A stretch of DNA of 25,505 nt, taken from a virus. The translations under genes and the position numbers were made by a program. Location of the stretch: IMG/VR virus record IMGVR_UViG_3300009103_000142, positions 1-25,505 of that record; one strand, given 5' to 3'. Shown in pieces: positions 13,943-24,426 of this stretch. The notes under the pieces are model-generated. The model did no database searches. It saw nothing but the letters and a program-made list of their open reading frames with translations, and was not told the origin of the DNA. Position 1 is the stretch's first letter, and each line of letters begins with the position of its first letter.

Positions 13943-13983
13943 AAATAAAGGGACAGCTTTTTGGTGATAAGGCAAGCTGTCCC
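13943..13983 (-). terminator. Intrinsic terminator ending the tmRNA transcript
   Basis: A perfect 10-bp stem GGGACAGCTT / AAGCTGTCCC (arms 13974-13983 and 13950-13959, 14-nt loop) is followed on the minus strand by TTTATTTT. It sits about 15 nt after the tmRNA tag stop codon. Confidence 0.88.
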
Positions 13984-13984
13984 A

Positions 13985-14279
13985 AGAACCTCACTTAGCT
14001 ATGCAGCTAAGGAATAAACGTTGTCGTTTGCGTTTATAGTTTTTGCTTCTGCGACCAAGAATCCTCAGTCCTGCGGCTTTCGCATTGCCGTGCTGTCGAC
14101 CTCTCACGCCTATTTAATCGAAACCTGTCATCCCCATTAAAAAGAGCTCTAAGACTCTAAGGTGGCGAAACTCCCTGCACGAAGTGCGTACTTCGGTCTA
14201 GGATGGTGGCAAGCCCTAAAGCCCTTATTGGTGGAGATGGGCGTAGTCGAAACGCCGTCTTAAATAGGTTAAATCGGCT
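13985..14279 (-). ncRNA. ssrA: Circularly permuted two-piece tmRNA
   Basis: The two tRNA-like halves are present in swapped order on the minus strand. The acceptor piece comes first (about 14275-14229): CCTATTTAA, a T-arm GGCGT-TTCGACT-ACGCC, then CATCTCC-A-CCA ending at 14229. A 93-nt intervening segment (14228-14136) follows. The coding piece then starts at 14135 with GGGGATG, D-loop-like ACAGGTTTCGA and TTAAATAGG. The acceptor stem pairs over 7 bp and contains G3-U70, the alanine identity element. TTAAATAGG (14117-14109) pairs perfectly with CCTATTTAA (14268-14260), 9 bp, as the long tmRNA helix. A tag frame follows at 14031-13999. The intervening segment should be excised to give two RNAs. 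Flanking protein genes and a terminator bound it tightly. tmRNA rescues stalled ribosomes with the host SmpB. Confidence 0.93.
13999..14031 (-). other. tmRNA tag-peptide reading frame (ANDNVYSLAA)
   Basis: Read from GCA at 14031, the codons give A-N-D-N-V-Y-S-L-A-A and a TAG stop. With the uncoded first Ala the tag is AANDNVYSLAA. It has the ANDN start common to proteobacterial tags and the LAA end recognised by ClpXP-type proteases. The resume codon is preceded by ACTATAAAC, comparable to the AATAGTC before E. coli's GCA. The end of the frame lies in a hairpin, TTAGCT / AGCTAA. Confidence 0.9.
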
Positions 14280-14549
14280 TCATACAGCCATATTCATTTT
14301 ATCTTTATTGAAACTTCTGAAATAGGAATTAAACCCCGCCTTGCGTATCCACTTCGTTCTCGCAGTAAATGCCTCTTCAATTTTTTCCTGATATTCTGCT
14401 AAACCAGCTTCGAGTTCATCTAACTCTTCATCGTTAAATTCGGTAATATCAATGGTAAAATAATTATTACTAGGCTCTGTTAATACAACTGCTTTTCTAT
14501 TTGTTATTTCTGTTGGCGTTTTGCTATATTGGAATTTAATATATTTCAT
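14280..14549 (-). CDS. Small hypothetical protein upstream of the tmRNA
   Basis: 89 residues, not recognised. It contains TIDITEFNDEELDELEAGLAEYQEKIEEAFTARTKWIRK, a long acidic then basic helix, and no signal or membrane segment. It lies about 26 nt downstream of the predicted start point of a consensus promoter. The stop codon is immediately followed by the tmRNA precursor, so tmRNA is made from the same transcript and must be cut out. Confidence 0.75.
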   Translation of the reverse strand: MKYIKFQYSKTPTEITNRKAVVLTEPSNNYFTIDITEFNDEELDELEAGLAEYQEKIEEAFTARTKWIRKAGFNSYFRSFNKDKMNMAV

Positions 14550-14581: not shown

Positions 14582-14610
14582 ATTATACTGAATTTTTAAC
14601 TAATTGTCAA
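14582..14610 (-). promoter_or_regulatory. Consensus promoter for the tmRNA transcription unit
   Basis: TTGACA (14610-14605), 17 bp, TATAAT (14587-14582), followed by ATACATTC and preceded by AAAAATAATTC. It serves the 89-residue gene and the tmRNA. Confidence 0.93.
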
Positions 14611-16456: not shown

Positions 16457-17296
16457 TTAAAACTTTACACGAAGACCTACTGTAGTAGTATCACTCTCTA
16501 CGCCAGCTTCGGTTTCAGCATTTTGATAATTAACATAAGCTGAAGTCCTGCTAGAGAAGTTGTGAACACCTTCTAGAGTATAAGTTTCTGTTGTATTTTC
16601 AACATCCTGAAAACCTGCCTTCAGTGTATTAGCGCCTACATCCATAGAACCTACAGTAGTGAAAGTATCAGTTTCTACACCAGCAGCAGTTTCTTCAGTT
16701 TCAAATACACCGCTAAGGTCTACACCTGAATAAGAGATATTAGCACCGATTAATGTATTCTTAACATTAGCAGCAGTTTCAGCATAAGCAGTATAAGCAT
16801 TGATAGGACCTAAGTTAAGACTAGCACCTAATTCATAAGCTTCATCAGTAGCTGAAGTTGGTATGTTAGAAGCGCTTAAAGTGATTCCTCCAACCTTAGC
16901 AGTTGCTAAGATAGAGTTATCAATATCGCCCGAGTTGTTCACGTCAAATCCTGGACCTTCAAAAATATCGATAGTAGCATCACCTAACTGCTTTTGAACA
17001 CCAGCTTGGTCACCGACAGCTACAGAACCGATTGGGCCCGCTAGCCCTACATAAGCCTTACGCTGAGTAGCAGTAGCAGCAATATCCATAGAAAGTTCAC
17101 CATAAGCAGACATACCATTACCTAAGTCTTCACCAAAAGTGAAACCTACATAAGTGTCTTCAGATGAGATAGCTTCAGTTCCATTATCCCACTTCTTCTC
17201 TACAGAACCAAATACAGATGTATCAGCTGCAGCTTCTTCAGCACAGCCAGTTAAAACGATTGCAGCTAAAGCTGCAGCAATAATTGTCTTTTTCAT
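16457..17296 (-). CDS. Phage-encoded outer-membrane porin with lipoprotein-type signal
   Basis: 279 residues. The signal peptide MKKTIIAAALAAIVLTGC carries a lipobox (L-T-G-C18), then a beta-barrel of the gram-negative porin type. Visible family marks are SVFGSVEKKWDNG, the EDTYVGFTFGEDLGNGMSAYGELS strand pair, QRKAYVGLAGPIGSVAVGDQ, alternating hydrophobic strands throughout, and a C-terminal strand ending in Phe (TVGLRVKF), the sorting signal read by the BAM machinery. About 260 mature residues suit a small barrel. A lipidated N-terminus on a porin is unusual. The gene is a single unit with its own promoter and codons biased to GCA/GCT. It may change the infected cell's outer-membrane permeability or receptors. 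Fold confident, purpose inferred. Confidence 0.85.
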   Translation of the reverse strand: MKKTIIAAALAAIVLTGCAEEAAADTSVFGSVEKKWDNGTEAISSEDTYVGFTFGEDLGNGMSAYGELSMDIAATATQRKAYVGLAGPIGSVAVGDQAGVQKQLGDATIDIFEGPGFDVNNSGDIDNSILATAKVGGITLSASNIPTSATDEAYELGASLNLGPINAYTAYAETAANVKNTLIGANISYSGVDLSGVFETEETAAGVETDTFTTVGSMDVGANTLKAGFQDVENTTETYTLEGVHNFSSRTSAYVNYQNAETEAGVESDTTTVGLRVKF

Positions 17297-17850: not shown

Positions 17851-18177
17851 TTACTTAACTGTGCTATAAGGGGCAACGCCGTAGTAAGCAGGCGTATTCT
17901 CTGTACGAATATCAGTAGCACCGTTGAAACGGTTATTACTATCTGCATCCATATCAGCTTCCATATTAGAATGAGCCTTACCAGAAGCATTGATAGTCAT
18001 ACTGAAGTTACCTTCTGCATCCATATCTCCTTTTCCAGCACCACGGCCACGTCCGTCAAATGCGCTATCTACATTACCATTGCCGTATCCGGACTGGTTA
18101 TCATCACCAGAACCAAAGAAAGCTGAAGCTGAAGTTGCTGTTGCTACCATAATCATTGCGATAATCATCTTTTTCAT
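17851..18177 (-). CDS. Exported Gly/Asn/Asp-rich protein, sulfur-globule-protein-like
   Basis: 108 residues. The signal peptide MKKMIIAMIMVATATSASA is followed by a low-complexity mature part rich in Gly, Asn, Asp and Met (GSGDDNQSGYGNGN, GRGRGAGKGDMDAEGNFSM, NMEADMDADSNNRFNG) and an end AYYGVAPYSTVK. This composition and the YYGxAPY ending resemble exported proteins annotated as sulfur-globule (CV1-type) proteins in marine and sulfur-oxidising bacteria. The similarity is compositional and could mislead. The gene heads its own unit, behind a promoter and a leader hairpin. Confidence 0.72.
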   Translation of the reverse strand: MKKMIIAMIMVATATSASAFFGSGDDNQSGYGNGNVDSAFDGRGRGAGKGDMDAEGNFSMTINASGKAHSNMEADMDADSNNRFNGATDIRTENTPAYYGVAPYSTVK

Positions 18178-23282: not shown

Positions 23283-23356
23283 TGGGGTGCAGTGTAGGTA
23301 ACGCTCCCACGTCGACGGGATCACAACCCGTGGCTCTACTTTTGAGCTAACCGCAC
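23283..23356 (-). tRNA. tRNA-His (GTG), altered elbow loops
   Basis: Acceptor GTGCGGT / ACTGCAC (one G-U), discriminator C73 as expected for His, encoded CCA. Anticodon loop TTGTGAT. The D-loop is only AAAAGTA (no G18-G19) and the T-loop is AGCGTTA instead of TTCRANY, with stem GTGGG / CCTAC. The -1 base is T, not the usual G. Confidence 0.82.
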
Positions 23357-23366
23357 ATATTTAAAT

Positions 23367-23442
23367 TGGTCTCCCGACTAGGATTTGAACCTAGGATACT
23401 ACGTCCCAAACGTAGGGTATTACCAGACTATACTATCGAGAG
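23367..23442 (-). tRNA. tRNA-Pro (TGG)
   Basis: Acceptor CTCTCGA / TCGGGAG, discriminator A, CCA encoded. Anticodon loop TTTGGGA on stem CTACG / CGTAG. D-loop contains GG; T-loop TTCAAAT is canonical. Confidence 0.93.
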
Positions 23443-23447
23443 TTGAT

Positions 23448-23521
23448 TGGTCCTCAGTGATGGTAACACTCCATCTTCTACCGCTTATTAGGCGACCGTT
23501 CTACTTTTGAACTAACCGAGG
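23448..23521 (-). tRNA. tRNA with anticodon AAT (Ile?), altered elbow loops
   Basis: Acceptor CCTCGGT / ACTGAGG, discriminator A, CCA encoded. Anticodon loop CTAATAA gives AAT, an A34 anticodon rarely used for Ile in bacteria; the anticodon stem has G-U pairs. The D-loop is AAAAGTA and the T-loop is AGTGTTA (stem GATGG / CCATC), as in the neighbouring tRNA-His. Identity uncertain. Confidence 0.65.
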
Positions 23522-23528
23522 AATAAAT

Positions 23529-23601
23529 TGGAGCGGATAGGGGAAATCGAATCCCCACAGCACGGCTTGGAAGGCCGGCGGTACACCTTGTACTTACCCG
23601 C
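23529..23601 (-). tRNA. tRNA-Gly (TCC)
   Basis: Acceptor GCGGGTA / TATCCGC, discriminator T as usual for Gly, CCA encoded. Anticodon loop CTTCCAA. Short D-loop AAGGT keeps GG; T-loop TTCGATT on GGGGA / TCCCC. Confidence 0.93.
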
Positions 23602-23604
23602 GTT

Positions 23605-23678
23605 TGGCTTCGGGTCGAGAACTCGAATCTCGATTCACAGGATCAAAACCTGTTGTCCTGCCATTAGACGAACCCGAA
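23605..23678 (-). tRNA. tRNA-Gln (TTG)
   Basis: Acceptor TTCGGGT / ACCCGAA, discriminator G, CCA encoded. Anticodon loop TTTTGAT on ACAGG / CCTGT. T-loop TTCGAGT. Confidence 0.93.
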
Positions 23679-23679
23679 A

Positions 23680-23755
23680 TGGCTCCTCGAATTGGACTCG
23701 AACCAATGACAAACGGATTAACAGTCCGTGGCTCTACCAACTGAGCTATCGAGGA
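23680..23755 (-). tRNA. tRNA-Asn (GTT)
   Basis: Acceptor TCCTCGA / TCGAGGA, discriminator G, CCA encoded. D-loop AGTTGGTA; anticodon loop CTGTTAA; T-loop TTCGAGT. Fully canonical. Confidence 0.95.
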
Positions 23756-23759
23756 AAAG

Positions 23760-23835
23760 TGGTGCCCAGAGTCGGATTCGAACTGACGACCTACGCATTA
23801 CAAGTGCGTTGCTCTACCAACTGAGCTATCCGGGC
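23760..23835 (-). tRNA. tRNA-Thr (TGT)
   Basis: Acceptor GCCCGGA / TCTGGGC, discriminator A, CCA encoded. Anticodon loop CTTGTAA on ACGCA / TGCGT. T-loop TTCGAAT. Canonical. Confidence 0.94.
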
Positions 23836-23842
23836 TTTATTT

Positions 23843-23917
23843 TGGTGGGTCTGAATGGGATTGAACCATTACTCAACCGATTATGAGTCGGATGCTTTAC
23901 CATTAAGCTACAGACCC
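23843..23917 (-). tRNA. tRNA with CAT anticodon (elongator Met or Ile2)
   Basis: Acceptor GGGTCTG / CAGACCC, discriminator A, CCA encoded. Anticodon loop CTCATAA on TCCGA / TCGGT. It lacks the GGG/CCC anticodon stem of initiators. The GACTCATAATCG core resembles Ile2 tRNAs whose C34 becomes lysidine; sequence alone does not separate this from elongator Met. Confidence 0.9.
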
Positions 23918-23921
23918 AGAG

Positions 23922-24006
23922 TGGTAGCTGGAGAGGGACTCGAACCCTCAACCCTTACGGGGAACGATTTTAAGTCGTTTGTGTAAACCAATTCCACCAT
24001 CCAGCC
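23922..24006 (-). tRNA. tRNA-Leu (TAA)
   Basis: 85 nt with a long variable arm (CCCCGTAAGGGT). Acceptor GGCTGGA / TCCAGCT (G1-U72), discriminator A, CCA encoded. Anticodon loop CTTAAAA; T-loop TTCGAGT. Confidence 0.93.
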
Positions 24007-24007
24007 T

Positions 24008-24268
24008 TTATTTCTTTAAAGTTTTACCTTTATTATATTCTAATCTTAAATATTTTGCCATTATATTCCAGGCTTCTTCTCCTTCATGGGGGATAATACA
24101 TCCTGAACAATCTTTATCACCATTAGGGAGTATTTCATATACACCTGGACATTTTATAAAGTATAATGGACAATAACAAAAAAGGCAGTTGAAATCAGCT
24201 GCCCTCTTTAATTTGTGGCAAGGGTAATACTTGCATTCTTTATTTGTAAAAACTTTATAACTATTCAT
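24008..24268 (-). CDS. Cysteine-rich small-domain protein within the tRNA cluster
   Basis: 86 residues. The pattern ECKYYPCHK...FNCLFCYCPLY...CPG...DCSGCIIPH (C12, C17, H18, C28, C31, C33, C40, C54, C57, H61) matches the cysteine-rich small domain family PF04071, a probable metal-binding domain of unknown function in archaea and anaerobic bacteria. Its ATG is 2 nt after the CCA end of the initiator tRNA and its stop is 2 nt before tRNA-Leu. It thus fills the gap exactly, has no ribosome-binding site, and would be freed by tRNA processing. Confidence 0.82.
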   Translation of the reverse strand: MNSYKVFTNKECKYYPCHKLKRAADFNCLFCYCPLYFIKCPGVYEILPNGDKDCSGCIIPHEGEEAWNIMAKYLRLEYNKGKTLKK

Positions 24269-24269
24269 T

Positions 24270-24344
24270 TGGTAGCAGGGGAGGGACTCGAACCCCCAAC
24301 CACTGGGTTATGAGCCCAGTAATCTACCTTTGATATACCCTGCA
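24270..24344 (-). tRNA. Initiator tRNA-fMet (CAT)
   Basis: Three initiator marks are visible. Position 1-72 is unpaired (T1, T72; acceptor TGCAGGG / CCCTGCT). Three G-C pairs sit in the anticodon stem next to the loop (CTGGG-CTCATAA-CCCAG). Position 11-24 is A-T. CCA is encoded; T-loop TTCGAGT. Confidence 0.88.
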
Positions 24345-24351
24345 ATAAAAT

Positions 24352-24426
24352 TGGTACTCGGTAGGGTAATCGAAACCCTGTTACGCGGATGAAAACCGTG
24401 TGTCCTAACCTCTAGACGAACCGAGC
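24352..24426 (-). tRNA. tRNA-Glu (TTC)
   Basis: Acceptor GCTCGGT / ACCGAGT (G1-U72), discriminator A, CCA encoded. Anticodon loop TTTTCAT. T-loop TTCGATT on AGGGT / ACCCT. Confidence 0.92.

Follow-up and report, generated by a model that had tools for sequence, protein, structure and literature searches.

A complete, circularly permuted (two-piece) tmRNA gene, genuine by its model matches and its anatomy, is encoded on the minus strand of the window, by which we mean the whole 25.5-kb fragment of an IMG/VR virus record analysed here. ARAGORN, run over the window, called a permuted tmRNA with the tag ANDNVYSLAA, and the Rfam model of the permuted class (tmRNA_permuted, RF04321) matched 14289-13999 from end to end (model positions 1-213 of 213; 87 bits, E 1.1e-15), well over its curated cut-off of 47 bits. 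The first-pass annotation had proposed a phage-encoded gene of this class, with the CCA-bearing acceptor half 5' of the tag half across a 93-nt spacer, a 7-bp acceptor stem with G3-U70, a TTCGACT T-loop, a perfect 9-bp helix between the pieces and a tag frame ANDNVYSLAA-stop, and had suggested a covariance-model search as a check; all of these diagnostic parts are present, within a syntenic T5-like gene array. The combination of acceptor stem, fully paired T-stem and CCA occurs once in the window and in 0/200 simulated controls (first-order Markov sequences of window length). An unconstrained fold of the whole precursor reproduces the tmRNA architecture (z -2.99), co-folding of the two pieces without the spacer gives the tRNA-like domain together with helix H2, and the GC content of the tmRNA is 48%, versus 34.8% for the window. 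Gene anatomy, model matches, phage context and recurrence in relatives are shown by the analysis, along with a probable deletion of the gene in one relative.

Anatomy and genomic setting of the gene

The features expected for alanine identity are in place, i.e. an acceptor stem with 7/7 pairs, G3.U70, and A73 followed by an encoded CCA (Table 1). The T-stem is paired at 5/5 positions, the D-loop, which contains GGUUUCGA, has the GG..UUCGA pattern, and H2 joins the two pieces with 9/9 pairs. Piece sizes of about 45 and about 150 nt had been suggested and are corrected here to about 61 and about 190 nt; the larger acceptor piece follows from its 5' end, which reaches 14289 or beyond, as GCUGU near that end can pair with ACAGC in the coding piece. 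The spacer forms a long hairpin adjoining the acceptor stem (z -3.16, with shuffles never folding as well), which reappears in the fold of the whole precursor, and its excision is expected. The stretch AGAGCUCUUUUU within the spacer was considered as a terminator between the pieces and rejected, being one arm of this hairpin.

In the coding piece, a short frame opens at a GCA resume codon and ends with a hydrophobic residue, two alanines and a stop, giving ANDNVYSLAA, or AANDNVYSLAA once the charged alanine is counted. The region 5' of the tag, where PK1 would be expected, has an extra hairpin of ~19 nt relative to RF04321, in a comparison made by a method that is not pseudoknot-aware, and an H5-like hairpin spans the tag end and the stop codon. 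The 3' hairpin (fold z -5.34) had been described as a terminator; by alignment with the betaproteobacterial model (beta_tmRNA, RF01850) it is the conserved 3' element of beta-type tmRNAs, and what stands of the earlier description is that the U-rich tail (13949-13940) may also terminate transcription. RF01850 matches 14346-13946 over its full length and is the best subtype model, which places the gene closest to the beta type, though its 57.4 bits lie under the curated cut-off of 84 bits.

Table 1. Coordinates of the tmRNA gene, its parts and related features (window positions unless a locus is named)
Feature	Position	Strand	Basis
Circularly permuted tmRNA, complete	14289-13946	-	ARAGORN, RF04321
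Consensus promoter TTGACA-17-TATAAT, 12/12	14582..14610	-	conserved in relative L056
89-aa ORF, no assigned function, directly 5' of tmRNA	14280..14549	-	homologues in nine related loci
Acceptor piece	14229..14289	-	ARAGORN, RF04321, sequence, fold
GCUGU (acceptor piece)	14288-14284	-	
H2 3' strand CCUAUUUAA	14268-14260	-	sequence
T-arm GGCGU-UUCGACU-ACGCC	14256-14240	-	sequence
Acceptor 3' strand CAUCUCC	14239-14233	-	sequence
A73 and encoded CCA	14232-14229	-	sequence
Intervening segment, exactly 93 nt	14136..14228	-	fold
Coding piece, ~190 nt, 3' end approximate	13946..14135	-	RF04321 and RF01850 alignments
Acceptor 5' strand GGGGAUG	14135-14129	-	sequence
D-loop ACAGGUUUCGA	14128-14118	-	sequence
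H2 5' strand UUAAAUAGG, perfect 9-bp with CCUAUUUAA	14117-14109	-	sequence
ACAGC (coding piece)	14096-14092	-	sequence
Tag frame GCA AAC GAC AAC GTT TAT TCC TTA GCT GCA TAG	13999..14031	-	ARAGORN, RF04321
H5-like hairpin CUUAGC-UGCAUA-GCUAAG	13994..14011	-	sequence, fold
3' hairpin GGGACAGCUU / AAGCUGUCCC, 14-nt loop GCCUUAUCACCAAA	13950..13983	-	beta_tmRNA alignment, fold
Hairpin with tmRNA 3' loop GCCUUAACACCAAA, at exact place of window's tmRNA	L056:850-863	+	
Tag-less tRNA-like domain	L075:1501-1629	-	RF04321
Tag-less tRNA-like domain	L076:1501-1632	-	RF04321
Tag-less tRNA-like domain	L077:1501-1614	+	RF04321
Unlisted permuted tmRNA, Pseudomonas phage SM1	L096:1174-1594	+	
Unlisted permuted tmRNA, Pseudomonas phage UF_RH6	L098:1177-1597	+	
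Unlisted permuted tmRNA, Pseudomonas phage PaMx31	L100:1174-1594	+	
Unlisted permuted tmRNA, Stenotrophomonas phage BUCTxx99	L097:1141-1466	+	

The sigma-70 promoter upstream of the 89-aa ORF is the probable start of the tmRNA precursor, and because the stop codon of that ORF falls within the acceptor piece, the two are probably co-transcribed. The window's polymerase shares about 47% identity with the enzymes of T5-like Vibrio and Enterobacter phages, and the neighbouring genes encode a D5-like regulator, NAD ligase, a DnaB-like helicase, primase, SSB and an SbcD-like nuclease. The tmRNA thus sits among the early and replication genes of a T5-like phage. A tRNA array lies at 23283-24426 (ARAGORN, Rfam); two of its genes (23451-23521 and 23532-23601, minus strand) were scored by Rfam without an ARAGORN call, bringing the array to 11 tRNAs.

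Two further genes of the window touch on the host. One (16457-17296, minus strand) encodes a porin of the Gram-negative type (Pfam Porin_4, E 9e-23) whose signal peptide is lipoprotein-like; such a protein might modify the surface of the host or keep other phages out. A host search with this porin gave only 31-32% matches. The other (17851-18177, minus strand) encodes a secreted protein of 108 aa that matches sulphur globule protein below the threshold, hinting weakly at a sulfur-oxidising host. Several related contigs have accessions that we take to be from Saanich Inlet or hydrothermal-plume samples, waters in which SUP05 sulfur oxidisers are abundant, and the sulphur-globule match weakly agrees with such a presumed origin.

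Probable trans-translation and the tag-less relatives

The gene very probably gives rise to a functional phage two-piece tmRNA, of closest likeness to the beta type, that is processed, charged with alanine, bound by host SmpB and able to release ribosomes and append AANDNVYSLAA. From established tmRNA biology we infer that the RNA is transcribed, cut, charged, bound by SmpB and used for tagging, to the benefit of the phage, as follows. Transcription from the early sigma-70 promoter would yield a precursor containing the small ORF and the tmRNA, from which host RNase P, cutting at G1, and 3'-end nucleases, stopping at the encoded CCA, would excise the 93-nt spacer with its hairpin. The acceptor and coding pieces would then be held together by the acceptor stem and H2, and be charged with alanine via G3.U70. 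SmpB was found neither in the window nor in a further 13 viral records, mostly fragments, and the charged RNA would thus presumably bind the SmpB of the host. Stalled ribosomes would be released with AANDNVYSLAA added to their products, the LAA end of which should be readable by host ClpXP. The phage would probably benefit because ribosomes are recycled and truncated products cleared away while mRNA turnover is high in infection. Trans-translation in the infected cell, with a tag supplied by the phage, is the most likely function. Against this reading count the sub-cut-off score with RF01850, the extra ~19-nt hairpin before the tag, the lack of a tmRNA after the upstream gene in nine related loci (see below) and the failure to find SmpB in the viral records. 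Our literature search, of limited extent, found no paper showing the action of a phage tmRNA in infection.

Three related loci are tag-less. L075, L076 and L077 (records G009, G006 and G008) match RF04321 in the tRNA-like domain only, at 45.3, 41 and 38.6 bits, respectively, under the cut-off; all three retain the T-stem and a fully paired acceptor stem (7/7) with G3.U70 and CCA. No tag frame is recognisable 3' of the domain, where the region differs among the three, and a candidate tag in the upstream part was ruled out since its frame is not conserved among them. In each the domain lies within a conserved non-coding leader of ~650 nt that runs from a consensus-like promoter to a thioredoxin-like gene (assigned by eye from a WCxPC motif). 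The consensus fold of the leader has 26 pairs in which both sides have changed in at least one sequence, a preliminary count given n=3, and two of its conserved stretches had no counterpart in any other viral contig. The domain in its leader is a candidate SmpB decoy or riboregulator. There is a precedent in mycobacteriophage DS6A, whose tmRNA gene comprises the tRNA-like domain only, and a molecule limited to that domain inhibits tmRNA, perhaps by SmpB titration (PMC4131195).

Both the tag-less relatives and DS6A lend some weight to the idea that the window's RNA is itself mainly a decoy, one that ties up host SmpB through its tRNA-like domain and so slows host trans-translation, the tag being secondary. 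We consider this quite improbable, as the window gene has an intact tag with a normal start and an LAA end, as well as the H5 and 3' hairpins, none of which a decoy would need. A broader proposal, which we put forward only tentatively and think rather doubtful, is that the lineage carries a phage-adapted module varying between two uses, namely tagging two-piece tmRNAs of the ANDNVY type in hosts with one-piece tmRNA, and tag-less leader RNAs that block or redirect host SmpB.

Presence and probable loss among T5-like relatives

A full permuted tmRNA scoring over the cut-off was present in 5/43 related viral records. Three of the five are from one metagenome and share a gene with the tag ANDNVYAIAA; the fourth has the tag ANDEIYALAA and the fifth, which is alpha-like, has ANDNDSFADIRLAA (both read from alignments). 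The gene lies roughly 15-24 kb 5' of the polymerase gene in these relatives versus 7.5 kb in the window, and by position and tag the T5-like relatives have permuted tmRNAs that differ from the window's and occupy other places. None of the nine related loci holding the upstream gene has a tmRNA after it, with one retaining the 3' hairpin, and the tmRNA is thus dispensable; the gene is optional in the T5-like lineage.

In L056, the closest relative by synteny, the flanking genes are the same but the tmRNA is missing; in its place is a hairpin whose loop, GCCUUAACACCAAA, is identical to the window loop at 13/14 bases, with a different stem sequence. Among 106 loci this loop motif occurs only in L056 and the window's own copy (L001). 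The simplest reading is that the tmRNA was probably deleted in the L056 lineage, leaving the 3' hairpin as a remnant; because that hairpin folds no better than shuffles (z only -0.83), the case for a deletion is built on the loop, the position and a stem that has changed yet still pairs. L056 shares another feature with L026 (10001-13349) and L027: immediately ahead of the MYGSG motif, their polymerase genes are split by an insert of about 1.1 kb, a probable self-splicing intron, which contains a 258-aa ORF resembling a homing endonuclease.

The apparent reduction to a hairpin in the nearest relative, the lack of a tmRNA at the same place in others and the sub-cut-off beta score might together suggest a captured or decaying gene that does nothing for the phage, which we regard as very unlikely given that all helices examined are intact and the tag is open. 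The distribution of the tag also argues against decay. The exact tag pattern with Ser-7 was absent from the viral contigs searched; widened to Ala or Ser at position 7 and a codon with middle T at position 8, the ANDNVY pattern turned up in 16 viral contigs (15 confirmed permuted tmRNAs, and a 16th that is cut off at the contig edge) versus a single bacterial genome, in which the gene is one-piece, which points to long residence in phages. One of the beta-like permuted tmRNAs (L092:1287-1661, minus strand), with the tag ANDNVYALAA, lies in a 364-kb viral contig, i.e. that of a huge phage. Misassembly or misbinning of cellular DNA, making the tmRNA bacterial, is an extremely remote prospect even for a window of metagenome origin, since the genes on both sides are syntenic with viral contigs, L056 has the same flanks and a separate 5,960-base viral contig (L017) is 100% identical across the part of the polymerase that it covers.

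Comparison with known permuted tmRNAs

Although blastn of the window tmRNA against GenBank phages gave no match, a better-conserved viral copy revealed permuted tmRNAs in Stenotrophomonas phages, some annotated as tmRNA. It also revealed them in Stenotrophomonas phage BUCTxx99 and in Samunavirus phages of Pseudomonas, at places where the records show no tmRNA. The tags of the unlisted genes (SM1, UF_RH6, PaMx31 and BUCTxx99) are ANDTSFDVRLAA and ANDDVYVVALAA. The permuted tmRNAs of these isolated phages are of the beta type; their hosts have a one-piece tmRNA, and such phages would therefore bring a different tmRNA architecture into the cell. The window gene, L075-L077 and a further 15 permuted tmRNAs with a tag (14 from phages or viral records, one from a bacterium) all have 7/7 pairs in the acceptor stem, with G-U at 3-70, and ACCA after it, whereas stem bases, spacer length (4-112 nt) and tags vary. 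The tags compared share an AND close to their beginning and finish in (L/I)AA. A scan of 369 genomes of one class for permuted tmRNAs returned a single match, which, with six candidates scored per genome, gives no frequency.

Two-piece tmRNAs in phages are not as rare as had at first been implied, 53 of the 133 unique phage tmRNAs reported in 2022 being of this kind (PMC9004378), and Rfam's merged model for permuted tmRNAs appeared in 2025 (PMC11915505). With that model (RF04321, merged from alpha, beta and cyanobacterial types) the window gene shares a full-length match, the order of the pieces, the acceptor stem, T-arm, H2 and tag, but differs in its long structured 93-nt spacer and in the extra hairpin before the tag. 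RF01850, the best subtype model, has in common with it the 3' hairpin with a GCCUU..ACCAAA loop, whereas the model's second 3' stem is missing from the window gene, which scores 57.4 against 84 bits. The Methylophilales phage Melnitz and its marine relatives likewise encode a permuted tmRNA 3' of an early promoter; Melnitz differs in being a T4-like myophage, in having a gene of the alphaproteobacterial type and in its glutamine riboswitch (PMC9004378), and no riboswitch was matched by Rfam in the window.

The T5-like lineage, with members that have a full two-piece tmRNA, a remnant, none, or a tRNA-like half, offers a naturally occurring series in which to compare rescue, tagging and inhibition, and the culturable Pseudomonas and Stenotrophomonas phages with permuted tmRNAs open the question to laboratory testing. 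Like the window, Stenotrophomonas phages Yut2, Moby and BUCTxx99 and Pseudomonas phages SM1, PaMx31 and UF_RH6 have a permuted gene with G3.U70 and an (L/I)AA tag end; these gammaproteobacterial phage isolates differ in belonging to other genera, in their tags and, for some, in having no GenBank annotation of the gene. Set against these systems, in which the phage two-piece tmRNA is already known, the window gene is a well-formed further example, and what is unusual is its occurrence in T5-like phages, together with the putative deletion remnant and the tag-less relatives.
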